From Rhodovulum sp. MB263 (GTDB taxonomy: Bacteria; Pseudomonadota; Alphaproteobacteria; Rhodobacterales; Rhodobacteraceae), in assembly GCF_002073975.1 (NCBI RefSeq), contig NZ_CP020384.1:1798001-1862000 (forward strand): a stretch of DNA of 64,000 nt. Reading direction: 5' to 3'. The position numbers and the translations under genes are program-made. Shown piece after piece: positions 2,777 to 16,287 of this stretch. The notes below the pieces were generated by a model. It saw only the letters and a list, made by a program, of their open reading frames with translations, did not search any database and had not been told where the DNA came from. The stretch's first letter is position 1. Each line of letters opens with the position of its first letter.

Positions 2777-3297
2777 GAGGCCTCCTGACATGGTGCGGAC
2801 GGGCTTGGGGAAAAGCGGCGGAATGTCGCAGGTTTCGCTTGTGCCGCCCCGCTCAATATGTTTGTCTTGGGTCAAGATGCAACGGTGCGACGCGAACCGG
2901 GCCCGAACCGGGCGCGATCCACCGCAAGGATGCCGCAAGGCGCCATAGCAGGGAACCGGGAGATCGGCTCATGTCGCTCCACATGGGCCACAGGGTTCCG
3001 GCGGATGCCGGGTCCAAGCCAGCAAGAGTCCGGCGCCGCGCGCTCCCGCGGTGCCGGATATCTTGTTTCCAGGCATAGCTCTTCCGGTTCGCGACCATCG
3101 CCCCGTTTGACATCGCCCGGTTTCACGATCATCGCCCGGACAGGCCGTCCCGCGTCCCATGACGCCCCCGCGACGCGCCGCCGCCGGCAGCTTCGTGGGG
3201 CATCGACCCGGTTTCATGGCATATCGGCCGTTCGCCCCGGGGTGACATGGCCCGATCTGTGGCGTATCAGGCGGCAGGTTGAGGGAAAGAGCAGGCA
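2777..3297. other. Intergenic region tldD-thrC, no cox genes
   Basis: About 520 bases between two divergent genes, so it must carry promoters for both. No protein family is recognisable in any frame. The segment around 2850-2890 is less GC-rich and lies where a tldD promoter would be expected. In some relatives this interval contains coxII, ctaB, ctaG, coxIII and surf1; none of them is here, not even as fragments I can recognise. Confidence 0.5.
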
Positions 3298-4689
3298 ATG
3301 CGCTATGTATCGACCCGGGGGCAGGCCCCGGTTCTGAATTTCGAAGAGGCAATGCTGACCGGGCTGGCCCGCGATGGCGGGCTTTACGTGCCCGAGACCA
3401 TTCCGGCGATGTCCGCCGACGAGATCGCGGCACTGGCCGGTCTGTCCTATGAGCAGGCCGCGTTCCGGGTGATGCGGCCCTTCGTGGGCGACACCTTCAC
3501 GGATGCCGAATTCGAGGCGATCATCGCCCGCGCCTATCGGGGCTTCAACCATGCCGCCCGGGCGCTCCTGGTCCAGATCGGCCCGAACCACTTCCTGCTT
3601 GAACTCTTCCATGGGCCCACGCTCGCGTTCAAGGATTTCGCGATGCAGCTGATCGGCCAGCTGTTCCAGGCCGCGCTCGAACGCTCGGGACAGCGGGTGA
3701 CGATTGTCGGGGCCACCTCGGGCGATACCGGCTCGGCCGCGATCGAGGCCTTCCGCGGGCTGCCCAATGTCGATGTCTTCATCCTCTTCCCCGAGGGCCG
3801 GGTTTCCGAGGTGCAGCGGCGCCAGATGACGACGCCCGCCGAGGACAATGTCCATGCGCTTGCCCTGAAGGGCGATTTCGACGATTGCCAGGCGCGGCTG
3901 AAGGACATGTTCAACCATTTCGAGTTCCGCGACGCGGTCGGGCTTGCGGGCGTTAACTCGATCAACTGGGCGCGGGTGCTGGCCCAGGTCGTCTATTACT
4001 TCACCTCGGCGGTCTCGCTGGGCGCCCCGCACCGGCCGGTCAGCTTCACCGTGCCGACCGGCAATTTCGGCGACATCTTCGCGGGCTACATCGCGCGCCG
4101 CATGGGCCTGCCGATCGGGAAGCTGGTGATCGCCACCAACCAGAACGACATCCTGCACCGCGCGCTGACCGGCGGCGCCTATGAGACGAAGGGCGTTGCG
4201 CCCTCGATCAGCCCGTCGATGGATATCCAGGTCTCGTCCAACTTCGAACGCGCCCTGTTCGAGGCCTATGGCCGCGACGGCGCCGCCGTCGCGGGCCAGA
4301 TGGAGGATCTGAAGGCCAGGGGCGGTTTTTCCATCAGTCAGGGTGCTCTGGAATTCCTGCGCGAAAGCTTCGCCTCGGGCCGTGCCTCCGAGGCCGAGAC
4401 CTCCGGGACGATCCGTGCGACCTTCGCCGCGACCGGTCTGACGATCTGCCCGCATACGGCGGTCGGCGTGAAGGTCGCGGCCGAGCAGCCCGCCTCGGCT
4501 GTGCCGATGGTGACGCTCGCGACCGCGCATCCGGCGAAATTCCCCGATGCGGTCGAGGCCGCCACCGGCGCGCGGCCCCCCCTTCCAAAATCGATGGCCG
4601 ATCTGTATGAGCGGCCGGAACGGGTGAGCCCGGTCGAGAACGACCTTGCCGCCCTCGAAGCCCTCATCAATGAAAGGCGCAAGCGTTGA
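3298..4689 (+). CDS. thrC: Threonine synthase
   Basis: PLP-dependent threonine synthase converting O-phosphohomoserine to threonine. 463 residues, the usual length of the long (class I) bacterial form. The PLP-binding lysine lies in 'GPTLAFKDFAMQ' (about K112) and the phosphate-binding loop in 'GATSGDTGSAA'. The N-terminus 'MRYVSTRG' is typical. A GAGGGAAAGAG-like ribosome site precedes the ATG. The stop codon overlaps the start of the M16 peptidase gene by four bases, so the two are translationally coupled. This thrC-peptidase-acetyltransferase order is common in Rhodobacteraceae. Function is secure. Confidence 0.97.
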   Translation: MRYVSTRGQAPVLNFEEAMLTGLARDGGLYVPETIPAMSADEIAALAGLSYEQAAFRVMRPFVGDTFTDAEFEAIIARAYRGFNHAARALLVQIGPNHFLLELFHGPTLAFKDFAMQLIGQLFQAALERSGQRVTIVGATSGDTGSAAIEAFRGLPNVDVFILFPEGRVSEVQRRQMTTPAEDNVHALALKGDFDDCQARLKDMFNHFEFRDAVGLAGVNSINWARVLAQVVYYFTSAVSLGAPHRPVSFTVPTGNFGDIFAGYIARRMGLPIGKLVIATNQNDILHRALTGGAYETKGVAPSISPSMDIQVSSNFERALFEAYGRDGAAVAGQMEDLKARGGFSISQGALEFLRESFASGRASEAETSGTIRATFAATGLTICPHTAVGVKVAAEQPASAVPMVTLATAHPAKFPDAVEAATGARPPLPKSMADLYERPERVSPVENDLAALEALINERRKR

Positions 4690-5948
4690 GCGTCGAGCTG
4701 CACAGGCTGCCGAACGGATTTCGTATCGTCACCGAGCGGATGCCCGGTCTGAAATCGGCCGCCATCGGGATCTGGATCATGGCCGGCGGGCGCGACGAGC
4801 GGCCCGAGGAAAACGGCATCGCCCATTTCCTCGAACATATGGCCTTCAAGGGCACCGAGAAGCGCACCACGCTCGAGATCGCCGAGGCGATCGAGGATGT
4901 GGGCGGCTATATCAATGCCTATACCTCGCGCGAGATGACGGCCTATTACGCCCGCGTGCTCGAGGCCGATGTGCCGCTGGCGCTGGACGTGCTGGCCGAC
5001 ATCCTGATCAATCCGGTCTTTGCCGAGGATGAGATCGAGGTCGAGCGCGGGGTGATCCTGCAGGAAATCGGGCAGGTGCTCGACACCCCCGATGATGTGA
5101 TCTTCGACTGGCTGCAGGAGGTTGCCTATCCGGGGCAGGCGCTGGGCCGCTCGATCCTGGGGCCTGCCGAGCGCGTGCGCGGCTTTACCCGCGAGGACCT
5201 GTTCCGCTTCATCGGCACGCATTACTCGCCCGACCGGATGATCCTGTCGGCCGCGGGCGCCGTCGATCATGCCGAGATCGTGCGCCTGGCCGAGGGGCTG
5301 TTCTCGGGGCGCGAGGCAACCCCGCGCGGCCCGCTCGAACCGGCCCGTTTCGCCAGCGGCGAGCGGCGCGAGGTCAAGCCGCTCGAGCAGGCGCATATGG
5401 CGCTGGCCTTCGAATGCCCGGGCTATCGCACCCCCGAGATCTATACCGCGCAGGTCTTCTCGACCGCGCTGGGCGGTGGCATGTCCTCGCGTCTGTTCCA
5501 GGAGCTGCGCGAGAAGCGTGGCCTGTGCTATACCGTCTTCGCCCAGACCGGCGCCTATGCCGATACCGGGATGATGACGCTTTACGCGGGCACCAGTGCC
5601 GAGCAACTCGGACCGATGGCCGAGCTGACCATGGCGGAACTCGCCCGTGCCGCCCAGGACATGACGCCCGCAGAGGTGGCGCGCGCCCGGGTGCAGATGA
5701 AGGCGGGCCTGCTGATGGGGCTGGAAAGCCCCTCGAACAGGGCCGAGCGGCTGGCGCGGCTGGTCTCGATCTGGGATCGCGTGCCCGGGGTCGAGGAGAC
5801 GGTGGCCAATATCGACGCGGTCACGACCGAGGCCGTGCGCGACTTCGCCGCCCGGCTGACCCTTGACGGCCGTCCGGCGCTGGCGCTTTACGGCCCCGTC
5901 TCGGGGGCACCGGCGCTTGACGCGCTGCAAGGCAGGCTGGCTGCCTGA
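4686..5948 (+). CDS. M16 family zinc peptidase (mitochondrial processing peptidase-like)
   Basis: 420-residue single-chain M16B metallopeptidase related to the beta subunit of mitochondrial processing peptidase. The inverted zinc motif HxxEH is seen as 'HFLEH' (H47, E50, H51), followed by 'MAFKGT' and the downstream glutamate region 'EVERGVILQEI'. The second half has the usual 'SSRLFQELREKRGLCY' segment of the substrate chamber. The start is a TTG at 4686 that overlaps the thrC stop (TTGA); no better start exists in frame. The stop overlaps the next gene's ATG by one base. The natural substrate is unknown in bacteria. Confidence 0.93.
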   Translation: MSVELHRLPNGFRIVTERMPGLKSAAIGIWIMAGGRDERPEENGIAHFLEHMAFKGTEKRTTLEIAEAIEDVGGYINAYTSREMTAYYARVLEADVPLALDVLADILINPVFAEDEIEVERGVILQEIGQVLDTPDDVIFDWLQEVAYPGQALGRSILGPAERVRGFTREDLFRFIGTHYSPDRMILSAAGAVDHAEIVRLAEGLFSGREATPRGPLEPARFASGERREVKPLEQAHMALAFECPGYRTPEIYTAQVFSTALGGGMSSRLFQELREKRGLCYTVFAQTGAYADTGMMTLYAGTSAEQLGPMAELTMAELARAAQDMTPAEVARARVQMKAGLLMGLESPSNRAERLARLVSIWDRVPGVEETVANIDAVTTEAVRDFAARLTLDGRPALALYGPVSGAPALDALQGRLAA

Positions 5949-6538
5949 TGCTGGGCCTCAGGCGCAAGGTCCGGATCGAGACCGAGCGCATGACCCTGCG
6001 CCCGCCGGCACATGCCGATTTCCAGGCCTGGACGATGCTCCGGGCCGAAAGCATCGCCTTTCTCACGCCCTGGGAACCGACCTGGTCGCCCGACCATCTG
6101 GCGCGCAAGGCCTTCACCAACCGGGTCTACTGGGCGCAGCGGGCGTTGGGCTCGGGCTCGGCGGTGCCGCTGTTCCTGTTCCGCCGCTCGGATGACGCGC
6201 TGCTGGGCGCGATCACGCTCGACAATATCCGCCGCGGTCCGTCGCAATCGGGCACGCTCGGCTACTGGATCGGTGCCTGCCATGCCCGCCGGGGCTATAT
6301 GCGCGAGGCGATCGAGGCCGTCGTGCATTACGCCTTTGCCCAAAAGGATCTGAGCCGGATCGAGGCCGCCTGCCTGCCCGAGAATGCCGCCTCGCGCGGG
6401 GTGCTGGAGAAATGCGGCTTCAAATACGAGGGCGTGGCGCAGAGCTACCTGCAGATCAACGGGCGCTGGCGCAATCACGTGCTTTACGCGAATCTGCGCC
6501 GCGACCGGCGCGGTCGGACCGAGACCGGGCTGGCCTGA
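5948..6538 (+). CDS. GNAT acetyltransferase, RimJ/RimL type
   Basis: 196-residue GNAT-fold acetyltransferase of the ribosomal-protein N-terminal acetylase type. Seen: 'RIETERMTLRPP' at the start, the acetyl-CoA loop region around 'GYWIGACHARRGYMREA' and the RimJ-like C-terminal stretch 'RIEAACLPENAASRGVLEKCGF'. It is the third gene of the thrC operon, its ATG overlapping the peptidase stop (TGATG). Family assignment is strong; the actual substrate, ribosomal S5/L12-like proteins or something else, cannot be read from the sequence. Confidence 0.9.
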   Translation: MLGLRRKVRIETERMTLRPPAHADFQAWTMLRAESIAFLTPWEPTWSPDHLARKAFTNRVYWAQRALGSGSAVPLFLFRRSDDALLGAITLDNIRRGPSQSGTLGYWIGACHARRGYMREAIEAVVHYAFAQKDLSRIEAACLPENAASRGVLEKCGFKYEGVAQSYLQINGRWRNHVLYANLRRDRRGRTETGLA

Positions 6539-12655: not shown

Positions 12656-12727
12656 GACATTCCTTTCTGCCATTTCCCCCGACATAACCTCGTGCTAGGG
12701 GCGGTTCCAGCAGGAAGGGAGAGCGGC

Positions 12728-13282
12728 GTGATCCGGGTGGCGGAAGAAACGGCCGGGGATTGGTGGGAAGTCGAGGCGCTTTACGATCTCTGCTTTGCGC
12801 CGGGCCGCAATGCGCTGTCTTCCTACCGTCTCAGGGATGGGGTGGCGCCGGTTGCCGGGCTCTGTCTGACCGCGCGCGATGCCGAGGGCATTCTGGCTGC
12901 CGCAATCCGGTACTGGCCGATCCGGGTCGGAGAGGCCGAAGCGCTGCTGCTTGGGCCGGTCGCCGTCCACCCCACGCGGCAGGGTGAGGGGCTGGGCGGG
13001 CTTCTGATCCGAAATTCGCTGGCCCGGGCCGAGGAGCTGGGCGTGGAACGGGTGATGCTGGTGGGCGATGCGCCCTATTATGCGCGCTTCGGTTTCTCGC
13101 GGCTGACCGGCGTCGAGATGCCACCGCCGACCAACCCCGACCGCGTGCTGGGGATAGAGCTGCGACCCGGCGCCTGGGCGGGCATCTGCGGTGCGGTGAC
13201 CCGTGCTCAGACGGACGCGCAGACGGAAGGGCAGACGGGCGGGCAGACCGGCGGGCAGGGGGACGAACCGCCGTCCGATTGA
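12728..13282 (+). CDS. GNAT acetyltransferase with repetitive C-terminus
   Basis: 184 residues starting at GTG 12728 with AGGGAG upstream. GNAT fold: acetyl-CoA loop 'VHPTRQGEGLGGLLI' (motif A) and 'VMLVGDAPYYARFGF', as in the YhbS-like group of predicted acetyltransferases. The last 25 residues are a low-complexity tail built of QTxx units, encoded by four 12-bp tandem repeats. The tail is not part of the GNAT fold and probably varies between strains. Substrate unknown. Confidence 0.87.
   Translation: MIRVAEETAGDWWEVEALYDLCFAPGRNALSSYRLRDGVAPVAGLCLTARDAEGILAAAIRYWPIRVGEAEALLLGPVAVHPTRQGEGLGGLLIRNSLARAEELGVERVMLVGDAPYYARFGFSRLTGVEMPPPTNPDRVLGIELRPGAWAGICGAVTRAQTDAQTEGQTGGQTGGQGDEPPSD
13208..13255 (+). 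repeat. 12-bp coding tandem repeat (4 units)
   Basis: Four direct 12-bp units, each beginning CAGAC, at 13208, 13220, 13232 and 13244. They encode QTDA, QTEG, QTGG and QTGG in the acetyltransferase gene. Because the unit is a multiple of three, copy-number change would not break the frame. Confidence 0.8.
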
Positions 13283-13549
13283 GTGGGCCATCTCTTCCGG
13301 CATGCTGGCACCCGGCGCGCCGCAGCGTCCTTTCTCGCGGCATTGGGCGAGGCCGGGCGGGATCGTAGCCCTGCGATTCGGCGAGAGAGGACGGATCGCG
13401 GGCGGGCGGCGCCTTTCCGGGGCAGCCCCCGGAATTCCCATGTCTTTGAAGAACGGCCCGAATTCAGATTTTCCGGGTAAAAGCCCATGTTCTGTGGTAA
13501 CCAAGGGTTGTGGGCGATTTGAGTCACACAATTCAGGGAGGATGTTTTG

Positions 13550-13939
13550 ATGAAGGTTTTTCTCGTTGCCTCTGCGCTGGTTCTTTCCGCGACGGCCGCA
13601 TCTGCTGCCGATCCGAGCAGCTTCCAGAACACCTGCTCCAATATCTGGTTCCACTATACCGATGACGGCGGTGCCGAAATCGTCGCGACCTGCCTGACTG
13701 CCGATGGCATGCCGAAAGAGACCTCGATCGCCATGCCGGGGATCGGGAACAAGGACGGATCGCTGGTCATGGAGGGCGGCAGCGCGAGCTTTCAGAAAAG
13801 CTGCGGCAGCATCATGCTTCACCCGTCCATCGATGGTGTGGAGCTGACCGCGTCTTGCCGCAAGGTCGACGGCTCCTTCGAGGAGGCGTCGATTTCGATC
13901 GACGGAATCAGCAACGAAAACGGGACCCTGTCGAACTGA
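13550..13939 (+). CDS. Secreted cyanovirin-N homology (CVNH) domain protein
   Basis: 129 residues. A signal peptide (hydrophobic core 8-18, cleavage near 'ASA-A' at 19-20) is followed by two homologous repeats, residues about 25-73 and 80-129. Each repeat has the CVNH pattern: 'SFQNTCSNI' / 'SFQKSCGSI', then a second Cys ('ATC' / 'ASC'), 'DG', a 'TSI/ASI' strand and 'IGNKDGSL' / 'ISNENGTL'. The four cysteines (about 29, 48, 85, 103) sit as in cyanovirin-N, where each repeat has one disulfide. CVNH proteins are small lectins, several binding high-mannose glycans; exported ones from bacteria are little studied. A GGGAGG site precedes the ATG and a strong terminator follows, so it is monocistronic. 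Confidence 0.85.
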   Translation: MKVFLVASALVLSATAASAADPSSFQNTCSNIWFHYTDDGGAEIVATCLTADGMPKETSIAMPGIGNKDGSLVMEGGSASFQKSCGSIMLHPSIDGVELTASCRKVDGSFEEASISIDGISNENGTLSN

Positions 13940-13961
13940 GGCCGGGGCCGGACATCCAAGG

Positions 13962-13989
13962 CGGGCAGTCCGGAGGGCTGCCCGTTTTT
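13962..13989 (+). terminator. Rho-independent terminator of the CVNH gene
   Basis: A 7-bp stem CGGGCAG / CTGCCCG (13962-13968 and 13978-13984) with a nine-base loop, followed directly by TTTTT. It lies 23 bases after the CVNH stop codon. Confidence 0.85.
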
Positions 13990-14043: not shown

Positions 14044-16287
14044 TCAGTCGCGCCGCCGCAGCCAGTCGATGATGGCCGGGCGCACCGACTGGGCGCCGCT
14101 GGCCCGGGCGGTGTCGATCACGGCGCGGGCCTCGGCGAGATTGCTGCGGCGGAGCATGTGCTTGACCGGGCCGATCGAGGCCGGGCGCATCGACAGGCAA
14201 CGCAGGCCGATGGCCGCGAAACACAGCGCCTCGACCGGGCGGCCTGCATCCTCGCCGCAAAAGGACAGCGGCGTGCCGGTATCCTCGCAGCGTTTCACGA
14301 TCTGCTCGAGGAAGCTCAGAAAGCTGACATTCAGCGTGTCATAGCGCCGCCGGACGCGTTCGTTTTCGCGATCCGCGGCGAAGAAGAACTGTTTCAGGTC
14401 ATTGCCGCCGATCGAGATGAAATCGGCTTCCTCGTAGAATTGCCGGGGCGAGAACGCCATCGAGGGGGTTTCCAGCATCGCGCCGATCTCGACCCGTTCG
14501 GGCAGGGGCCGGCCCAGCCGTCCCTCGCGGTCGATCTCGCGCAGCAGGTGGTCGCGCGCGGCGCGGAATTCGTCGAGCTGCGCCACGAAGGGGAACATCA
14601 CCGAAAGCGGCCGGCCATTGGCGGCCCGGATCAGCGCCTGAAGCTGCATCCGGAGCACGCCGGGCCGGTCGAGCCCGACCCGGATCGCGCGCCAGCCGAG
14701 GGCGGGGTTCGGCTCGTCCTGCGGCTTCATGTAGGACAAGACCTTGTCCGAGCCGATATCGAGCGTGCGGAAGACGACGCGGCGGCCTTCGGCTGCGTCC
14801 ATCACCCGGGCATAGAGCGCGGCGACCTCGCTGCGTTTCGGCACCTTGGAGCGGACGAGGAACTGCAGTTCGGTGCGAAACAGGCCCACGCCCTCGGCGC
14901 CCGAGCTTTCCAGCGAGGGCAGGTCGGCCATCAGGCCCGCATTCATGTGCAGCGCGATCCGCTGGCCGCAAAGCGTCAGTGCCGGTTCCTTGCGGATCGT
15001 GGCATAGCGCTGCTGCGCCTTGGCCTGCATCGCGATCTTGTCGTTGAAGGCGGTCGCGACGGTCTCTTCGGGGCGCAGATGCACGATGCCCTGCTCGGCA
15101 TCTACAAGGATCGGGTCCCCGTTCAGCGCCTCGGTCGTGATCCGCCGGGCATTGACGATCAGCGGGATTGCCAGCGCCCGCGCGACCACCGCGGCATGGC
15201 TGCCGACCGAGCCTTCCTCGAGCACGATGCCGCGCAGGCTCCGGCCGTAATCCAGAAGCTCTCCGGGGCCGATATTGCGCGCGATCAGGATCGGGTCCGA
15301 GGGGCGCTCGGCGCCGGTATGCTCGCCCTGGCCGGTCAGGATGCGCAGCAGCCGGTTCGACAGGTCGTCGAGATCGTGCAGCCGCTCGCGCAGATAGGGG
15401 TCGGGTACGGTCTGCATGCGCGCGCGTGCTGCGGATTGTTCCTTCTCCACCGCCGCCTCGGCCGAGAGACCGCGGGCGATGTCCTCTTCCATCCGGCGCT
15501 TCCAGCCGCGCGAATTGGCGAACATCCGGTAGGCTTCCAGCACCTGAAGCTGATCCTTGTCGCCACCCGGCGCTGCGCTCAGCATCTCGTCGACGGTGAC
15601 GCGCAACCGGTCGACGGCCTCGGCCAGCCGCTGCATCTCGGTCTCGTAATCGTCGGCGATGGGGTTTGTCACGACCACGCGCGGTTCGTGCAGCCAGACA
15701 TGGCCGACTGCCACCCCTTCCTGGCCGACAGTGCCCTGAAACATCACCGGCCGCTGGTGCAGCGCGGCCAGCGCCTCGCCTTCGCCGACAAAGGCGCCAA
15801 GCTCGGTCATCTCGGCCAGCACCATGGCCACGACCTCGAGCGCGTATAGCTCGTCATCGGAATACTGCCGCGCGTCCCGGGACTGCACGACCAGCACGCC
15901 CAGCCGTTCGCCCAGGCGCTGGATCGGCACGCCGAGGAAGGCCGAGAAGATCTCTTCGCCGGTCTCGGGCATGTAGCGGAAGCCGCGTTCCTGCGGAGCG
16001 TTGCCGGAATTGATCGGATGCGCGGTCTTGGCGACGCGACCGACCAGCCCCTCGCCGACCCGCAGCCGGGTCTTGTGCACCGATTCCGGGTTCAGACCCT
16101 CGGTTGCACAAAGCTCCAGCGTATCGGCATCGCGAAACAGATAGACCGAGCAGACATGGGTGCCCATCTGCTCGGCGATCAGGGTCGTGATACGATCCAG
16201 CCGCTCCTGACCCGCCGCCGGCTCGGCGAGGGTCTCGCGCAAGCTGACAAGCAGCTTGCGGCTTGCACTCTCAGTCGGGTCGGGCAT
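14044..16287 (-). CDS. ptsP: Phosphoenolpyruvate-protein phosphotransferase PtsP (EI-Ntr)
   Basis: 747 residues. First enzyme of the nitrogen PTS relay, taking phosphate from PEP to NPr. N-terminal GAF sensor domain (about 25-165), then the PTS phosphohistidine domain with H364 in 'GSVGSHAAVVARALAIP', then the PEP-binding barrel ('GLFRTELQFL', 'LDIGSDK', 'IGAMLETPSMA', 'ISIGGNDL', 'LSFCGEDAGRP'). In proteobacteria the GAF domain lets glutamine/2-oxoglutarate tune the relay. It lies 11 bases downstream of lysC in the same direction, so lysC-ptsP is probably one transcript, an order common in Rhodobacteraceae. Confidence 0.96.
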   Translation of the reverse strand: MPDPTESASRKLLVSLRETLAEPAAGQERLDRITTLIAEQMGTHVCSVYLFRDADTLELCATEGLNPESVHKTRLRVGEGLVGRVAKTAHPINSGNAPQERGFRYMPETGEEIFSAFLGVPIQRLGERLGVLVVQSRDARQYSDDELYALEVVAMVLAEMTELGAFVGEGEALAALHQRPVMFQGTVGQEGVAVGHVWLHEPRVVVTNPIADDYETEMQRLAEAVDRLRVTVDEMLSAAPGGDKDQLQVLEAYRMFANSRGWKRRMEEDIARGLSAEAAVEKEQSAARARMQTVPDPYLRERLHDLDDLSNRLLRILTGQGEHTGAERPSDPILIARNIGPGELLDYGRSLRGIVLEEGSVGSHAAVVARALAIPLIVNARRITTEALNGDPILVDAEQGIVHLRPEETVATAFNDKIAMQAKAQQRYATIRKEPALTLCGQRIALHMNAGLMADLPSLESSGAEGVGLFRTELQFLVRSKVPKRSEVAALYARVMDAAEGRRVVFRTLDIGSDKVLSYMKPQDEPNPALGWRAIRVGLDRPGVLRMQLQALIRAANGRPLSVMFPFVAQLDEFRAARDHLLREIDREGRLGRPLPERVEIGAMLETPSMAFSPRQFYEEADFISIGGNDLKQFFFAADRENERVRRRYDTLNVSFLSFLEQIVKRCEDTGTPLSFCGEDAGRPVEALCFAAIGLRCLSMRPASIGPVKHMLRRSNLAEARAVIDTARASGAQSVRPAIIDWLRRRD

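Follow-up and report, generated by a model that had tools for sequence, protein, structure and literature searches.

An exported-looking CVNH lectin gene in Rhodovulum sp. MB263 with a sporadic distribution among proteobacteria

Introduction

Does a short gene in an alphaproteobacterial chromosome encode a genuine cyanovirin-N homolog (CVNH) lectin, and what could such a protein do for the bacterium that makes it? The question was raised by an initial annotation of a 64,000-nucleotide stretch of the Rhodovulum sp. MB263 chromosome (hereafter, the window), which described a secreted CVNH protein encoded as a single-gene unit. According to a review, the role of cyanobacterial lectins in the bacteria that produce them is almost unknown (PMC4390846). 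We analysed the gene, its product, its relatives and its distribution.

Results

Gene layout and predicted export

The open reading frame had been called correctly in its start, stop and coordinates (13550–13939, 129 aa), and the ribosome-binding site claimed for it was found upstream of the ATG. The features of the locus are as follows.

12686..13282, + strand: neighbouring GNAT acetyltransferase gene, ending 267 nt upstream of the CVNH gene; start codon approximate
13536..13541, + strand: ribosome-binding site GGGAGG, 8 nt 5' of the ATG, read from the sequence
13550..13939, + strand: CVNH lectin gene, 129 aa plus stop; ATG at 13550, stop codon ending at 13939
13550..13606, + strand: signal-peptide-like segment, residues 1–19, MKVFLVASALVLSATAASA, with the cleavage motif ASA before AD, by inspection
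13619..13768, + strand: CVNH repeat 1, approximately residues 24–73, with Cys29, Cys48 and a long beta1-beta2 hairpin
13787..13936, + strand: CVNH repeat 2, approximately residues 80–129, with Cys85, Cys103 and a long beta1-beta2 hairpin
about 13958..13988, + strand: hairpin with its 3' arm running into a T run, a possible terminator, without a terminator-scan call
14044..16287, − strand: neighbouring ptsP-like gene with GAF and PEP-utilising domains, convergent with the CVNH gene

The layout, with GNAT 267 nt upstream and ptsP on the opposite strand, makes a single-gene transcription unit likely, and as far as can be told the GNAT gene lies outside it; that part of the annotation held on layout, although the promoter and terminator scans around the gene each returned 0 sites. 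The hairpin with its T run lies between the stop codons of the CVNH gene and ptsP, and could possibly terminate both convergent genes. It had been described as a strong terminator, which overstates it: the 56-nt stretch folds at −29.2 kcal/mol with a z of only −1.63, equalled by 10 of 200 shuffles. At the 3' end of the GNAT gene (13203–13256), short 12-bp direct repeats encode a Gln/Thr/Gly-rich tail (TQTDAQTEGQTGGQTGGQ).

By eye, the N-terminus of the protein has K2, a hydrophobic stretch and an ASA motif before AD. These features agree with the proposed signal peptide, and we infer from them that the protein is exported through Sec.

Family and predicted fold

The protein matched Pfam CVNH (PF08881) with an E-value of 1.6e-11 and 45.3 bits against a cut-off of 24.5, residues 25–127 covering profile positions 1–101 of 102, and the Pfam scan found no further domain beyond the CVNH repeats. 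The NCBIfam equivalog NF052356 ('mannose-binding lectin') agreed over residues 23–128, with 83.9 bits against a cut-off of 80. This margin is thin, and the same cut-off splits the relatives, 7 of the 10 scanned lying above it and 3 below (79.2, 79.7 and 73.8 bits); a search of 11 genomes with the NF052356 profile gave matches in 10, over the cut-off in only 2. The best matches in a PDB sequence search were cyanovirin-N constructs and CVNH proteins. In its own genome, the window protein was the one CVNH match reported.

Structure was predicted with AlphaFold from an alignment (A3) of 12 sequences, 11 of them relatives taken from public contigs and the twelfth the window protein; two of the 13 relative loci (L054 and L058) were excluded. 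The model had a mean pLDDT of 83.7 and a pTM of 0.70, with secondary structure repeated twice, and pLDDT fell below 50 over at least 3 residues only at residues 8–22, in the signal-peptide-like start. All 19 PDB chains found by Foldseek at E ≤0.001 were cyanovirin-N or CVNH proteins, some of them designed or mutated. TM-scores were moderate (0.51–0.59 by query length, the signal peptide counted, and 0.48–0.72 by target length) with an rmsd of 3.2–4.7, so the fine details of the model should be taken with caution. Two tandem repeats of about 50 residues with the CVNH double fold are thus found in the predicted model and by Foldseek. The initial annotation had named a missing CVNH profile match, or another predicted fold, as what would overturn its assignment to the CVNH family with two repeats; the profile search and the prediction gave neither, and family and fold are near certain.

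Cysteines, sugar sites and hairpins

Cys29, Cys48, Cys85 and Cys103 align with C8, C22, C58 and C73 of cyanovirin-N and occupy the same columns in all 12 rows of the alignment. The cyanovirin-N disulfides are C8-C22 and C58-C73, as given in PMC3645700. The four cysteines had been noted as standing at lectin-like positions, and they do align with both pairs; from this alignment two disulfides probably form in the window protein.

The core of both sugar sites is also kept. Asn67 and Asn122 stand at the positions of N42 and N93, which hold Asn in 12/12 aligned proteins; Ser84 and Thr28 stand at those of T57 and T7, where 12/12 have Ser or Thr. The site-A positions of this core are placed by symmetry. 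By NMR, the long-lived hydrogen bonds of cyanovirin-N site B involve the backbone of N42, D44, S52, N53 and K74 and the hydroxyl of T57, and none was detected from the side chains of Glu41 or Arg76 (PMC8091458). Since these bonds are mostly from the backbone and the T57 hydroxyl, an Asn plus Ser/Thr core is the part expected to be conserved. Another paper describes dimannose as hydrogen-bonded by Glu41, Ser52, Asn53 and Glu56 (PMC11112747); between these two papers the weight of such contact side chains is disputed.

The window protein lacks the cyanovirin-N-like contact side chains Glu41, Glu56, Arg76 and Glu23. In the alignment, the site-B contacts E41, E56 and R76 are replaced by Gly66, Lys83 and Val106, and E23, presumably a site-A contact, is replaced by Leu49. 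These changes bear on specificity, not on CVNH membership. A glycan site is likely from the conserved residues; mannose specificity is uncertain because several contact side chains differ, and high-mannose specificity in particular is not assured by the sequence.

Between the paired cysteines lie 18 residues in repeat 1 and 17 in repeat 2, vs 13 and 14 in cyanovirin-N. An insertion ('HYTDDGGAE') had been ascribed to repeat 1 and thought to alter the sugar site. Neither point was supported: both beta1-beta2 hairpins are long, as they are in 9 of the 11 aligned relatives (one only is long in L057, neither in L055), and the equivalent of the long-hairpin turn is absent from the site-B residues listed in PMC8091458, site A being judged by symmetry. 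The side-chain changes at E41, E56 and R76 are better ground than the loop for supposing another specificity, although this is uncertain.

Proposed function

Microvirin is reported to bind the LPS of its producer, with a proposed role in colony formation (PMC4390846). As this is the only precedent we have read for a bacterial CVNH protein acting in its own host, we favour surface-glycan bridging for the window protein. The lectin would be exported through Sec and lose its signal peptide, and the mature domain of about 110 residues would form two swapped half-domains with two disulfides and two sugar sites. It would bind mannose-like termini, perhaps Man-alpha-1,2-Man, on an envelope polysaccharide, on LPS or on exopolysaccharide, whether of the producing cell or of its neighbours. 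Bridging of two glycans could then give cell-cell attachment or matrix cohesion, as proposed for microvirin in Microcystis. We give roughly an even chance to this reading, in which the protein leaves the cytoplasm and bridges mannose-like glycans on cell surfaces through its two sites, the identity of the sugar and the bridging itself being the conjectural parts. The family, the predicted fold, the conserved core of both sites and purifying selection on the gene speak for it. Against it stand the changed contact side chains, the lack of a glycan-related gene among the window neighbours scanned, neighbours of relatives that recur only in narrow pairs, the split copy in the nearest relative and the absence of the gene from most genomes searched.

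Gene neighbourhoods

The three window neighbours scanned (GNAT, ptsP and a flavin reductase gene) include no glycan-related gene. Among the 11 relatives, neighbours recurred only in narrow pairs. leuD lies beside the CVNH gene in two genomes of the family, Antarctobacter heliothermus (leuD/leuC) and G226 (on the other side of leuD), and a YjeF_N/Carb_kinase gene adjoins it in two Rhizobiales MAGs; the Nitrosovibrio gene is flanked by transposase genes. Such pairwise recurrence hints at no pathway, and among the neighbours scanned no broad shared neighbourhood was found that could serve as a clue to function. The scan left out three loci (L050, L055 and L058), and 9 of the 20 neighbouring ORFs scanned in the 11 relatives had no Pfam match; these had been chosen for their length and may be shadow ORFs.

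These neighbourhoods bear on the possibility that the protein stays in the periplasm and binds glycans there, for instance in oligosaccharide capture or sensing, without bridging cells. The signal-peptide-like start, the lack of any domain past the CVNH repeats and a gene that stands alone by layout all suit this reading. However, none of the scanned window neighbours is a transporter, sensor kinase or polysaccharide gene, no partner recurs beyond the narrow pairs (with the above 9/20 ORFs lacking a Pfam match), and two conserved sites suit bridging better than capture. We regard a periplasmic role as possible but on the unlikely side.

Distribution and history of the locus in the genus

Genomes were surveyed with the Pfam CVNH model in overlapping sets, each including the window's own genome. 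Matches were sporadic: the gene turned up in 4 of 61 relatives, in 2 of the 16 genus members and in 4 of 394 genomes from the family. At class level 9 of 385 genomes matched, and in a sample of the phylum 5 of 398, 4 of these last 5 coming from one other genus. Several of the class and phylum matches cover just half of the profile. The model had no match in 14 control genomes.

The second match in the genus was in G001, the nearest member by ptsP (98%), where the CVNH gene lies between the same neighbours as in the window genome (G000) and is interrupted by an IS3-type element carrying HTH_Tnp_1 and rve ORFs (L039, about 1121–2332). The two G001 DNA matches share 6 bp at window positions 13660–13665, an overlap that fits a target duplication. 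In 5 of the 16 genus members GNAT adjoins ptsP without a CVNH gene; the gap between them is −4 to 196 nt in four and 703 nt in the fifth, vs 761 nt in the window, and the CVNH model had no match in the 703-nt gap. Nine members are uninformative about the site: eight have no GNAT match within 1.5 kb, among them G015, where homology is lost beyond ptsP, and in G005 the contig ends there. The simplest reading is that the gene was gained before the split of G000 and G001 and later damaged in G001; repeated loss elsewhere is possible.

Between G000 and G001, dN/dS for the CVNH gene was 0.37 over 36 codons and 0.22 over 89 codons, together 0.25 over 125 codons, compared with 0.06 for ptsP (218 codons), 0.10 for GNAT (176 codons) and 0.33 for the flavin reductase (209 codons). 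The CVNH gene is under purifying selection, weaker than that on ptsP, and some of the change counted may postdate the insertion in G001. Its G+C is 0.597 vs 0.637–0.71 in six nearby genes, and its third-position G+C of 0.783 lies under that of 5 of the 6 (0.833–0.876) and equals that of GNAT; this is weak evidence for transfer.

The gene could also be a recent acquisition that brings the cell hardly any advantage, or none, and is on its way to being lost by drift. Presence in only two genus genomes, with one copy split by the IS3-type element, and the low G+C, overall and at third positions, are what such a history would leave. The dN/dS of about 0.25 speaks against it, as does a window copy with its reading frame, cysteines and site residues intact, and we consider drift unlikely.

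Relatives and probable lateral spread

Searching genome contigs with the single protein confirmed 0 of 41 stretches, whereas searching with an alignment (A1) confirmed 13 of 30. Within the window's family, a CVNH protein of G226 (L041) had 49% identity. More distant relatives came from Nitrosovibrio, gammaproteobacterial and Rhizobiales MAGs, Aureimonas, Sphingomonas, Sphingobium and a Nostoc plasmid.

Shorter and rearranged forms were seen as well. In Maliponia aquimaris (L054, 6001–6231), 77 residues comprise a signal-like start and one CVNH-like repeat, with no Pfam match at E 0.001; the protein ends like the second repeat of its relatives and looks like a collapse between two repeats. Four proteins of genus g455 (L014, L016, L017 and L018) begin with a signal-like segment and a single CVNH half and continue into a C-terminal part, which is a beta/gamma-crystallin domain in L014, the one scanned. 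Two of genus g431 (L012 and L013) have one half-repeat and then a stretch of some 100 residues, in which L012, the one scanned, gave no Pfam match. In G377, a protein (L008) reads as three CVNH-like repeats.

A tree of 20 rows was built without the single-repeat, three-repeat and partial proteins (L008, L011–L014, L016–L018 and L054), L058, in which the reading frame stops early, and the interrupted copy of G001; the rows L053 and L059 do not begin at a start codon. By identity and by path the window protein is nearest to Ensifer. Only 4 of 17 inner branches were well supported, however, and the window protein falls in none of the supported clades, so we do not propose Rhizobiaceae as the donor. 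Similarity that crosses orders, together with the patchiness, points to horizontal spread of the gene.

A broader reading is that laterally spread, exported CVNH proteins of alpha-, beta- and gammaproteobacteria form a group, marked by long hairpins and altered side chains at the sites, that shares recognition of a surface glycan with a specificity other than high mannose. Their job might be self-adhesion, host contact in Sesbania-associated rhizobia or the blocking of phage adsorption, as alternatives within the same reading, which we judge distinctly unlikely as a whole.

A phage or virus origin was rejected: 0 relatives were found among 81 and 103 candidate stretches in viral contigs, no phage record matched, and a PHROG search gave two matches, only at E 0.035 and 0.068. 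We also think it very improbable that the protein is an anti-phage or anti-competitor factor, which would prevent adsorption or recognition by attaching to glycans of phages or cell surfaces. The very patchy distribution, the signs of horizontal spread given by nearest relatives that belong to another order and the IS element in the nearest relative's gene would suit it, but the protein had no match in the defence library and the scanned window neighbours are not defence genes. The lack of relatives in viral contigs and phage records has no direct bearing on defence.

The initial annotation had also held that a CVNH protein was not described in this context. Our literature searches, judged by titles and abstract openings, found no publication on a proteobacterial CVNH protein. 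The claim nevertheless went somewhat too far, since an NCBIfam equivalog already covers the protein and a Sinorhizobium relative is annotated as CVNH. One review table labels several bacterial lectins, some of them proteobacterial, as 'CVN-fold' (PMC6359319). We take these lectins to have other folds, and the table was not relied on.

Discussion

The window gene is a real gene for an exported-looking CVNH lectin, an ordinary member of its family, found in few and scattered genomes of the proteobacteria sampled. Research on CVNH lectins has dealt with their antiviral sugar binding; a short, apparently exported proteobacterial member, with close Sinorhizobium relatives of which one comes from a root nodule, would let the native role be tested by deletion. 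The protein would also add a natural CVNH variant with different side chains at its sites. That the gene is rare in its bacterial family and akin to those of Sinorhizobium is of mild interest, and the finding is modest.

Compared with cyanovirin-N of Nostoc ellipsosporum, the window protein has in common the fold, the two repeats, the two cysteine pairs and the Asn plus Thr/Ser of the sugar sites; it differs in the longer beta1-beta2 hairpins of both repeats and in not keeping E41, E56, R76 and E23. The cyanovirin-N chains that Foldseek aligned, several of them mutants, had 26–30% identity to it. Microvirin of Microcystis aeruginosa (PDB 2y1s; E 1.8e-6, 29% identity) and Cyt-CVNH of Cyanothece (PDB 5k79; E 1.3e-6, 34% identity) share the CVNH fold by Foldseek. 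Microvirin has a reported LPS-binding role, whereas the window protein is known here from its sequence and predicted structure.

Closer to the window protein is that of Antarctobacter heliothermus (L048), currently placed by NCBI in Roseobacteraceae, order Rhodobacterales. It has 56% identity with the same architecture and cysteine spacing, and scores 79.2 bits to NF052356, slightly under the cut-off of 80. Its gene (region 3174–6097) lies antisense between leuD and leuC, vs beside ptsP in the window. Genome G421, assigned to the same family as the window, carries this very protein, and the placement in Rhodobacteraceae made by the initial annotation is consistent with the data.

The closest named relatives are in Rhizobiaceae, which belong to another order than the window. 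CVNH proteins of Ensifer sesbaniae CCBAU 65729 and Ensifer sp. MPMI2T have 68% and 64% identity, respectively, and both have the cysteine spacing of the window protein. That of Sinorhizobium alkalisoli YIC4027 (WP_069456571.1, annotated 'CVNH domain-containing protein') has 66% identity over 107 residues and 61% over 128; it is encoded on a 456-kb plasmid in a strain from a Sesbania nodule. Our literature searches found no characterisation of these Ensifer and Sinorhizobium proteins. Their gene neighbourhoods differ from that of the window, and transposases lie near the S. alkalisoli gene. The proteins themselves are built as the window protein is, with a signal-like start followed by two repeats.
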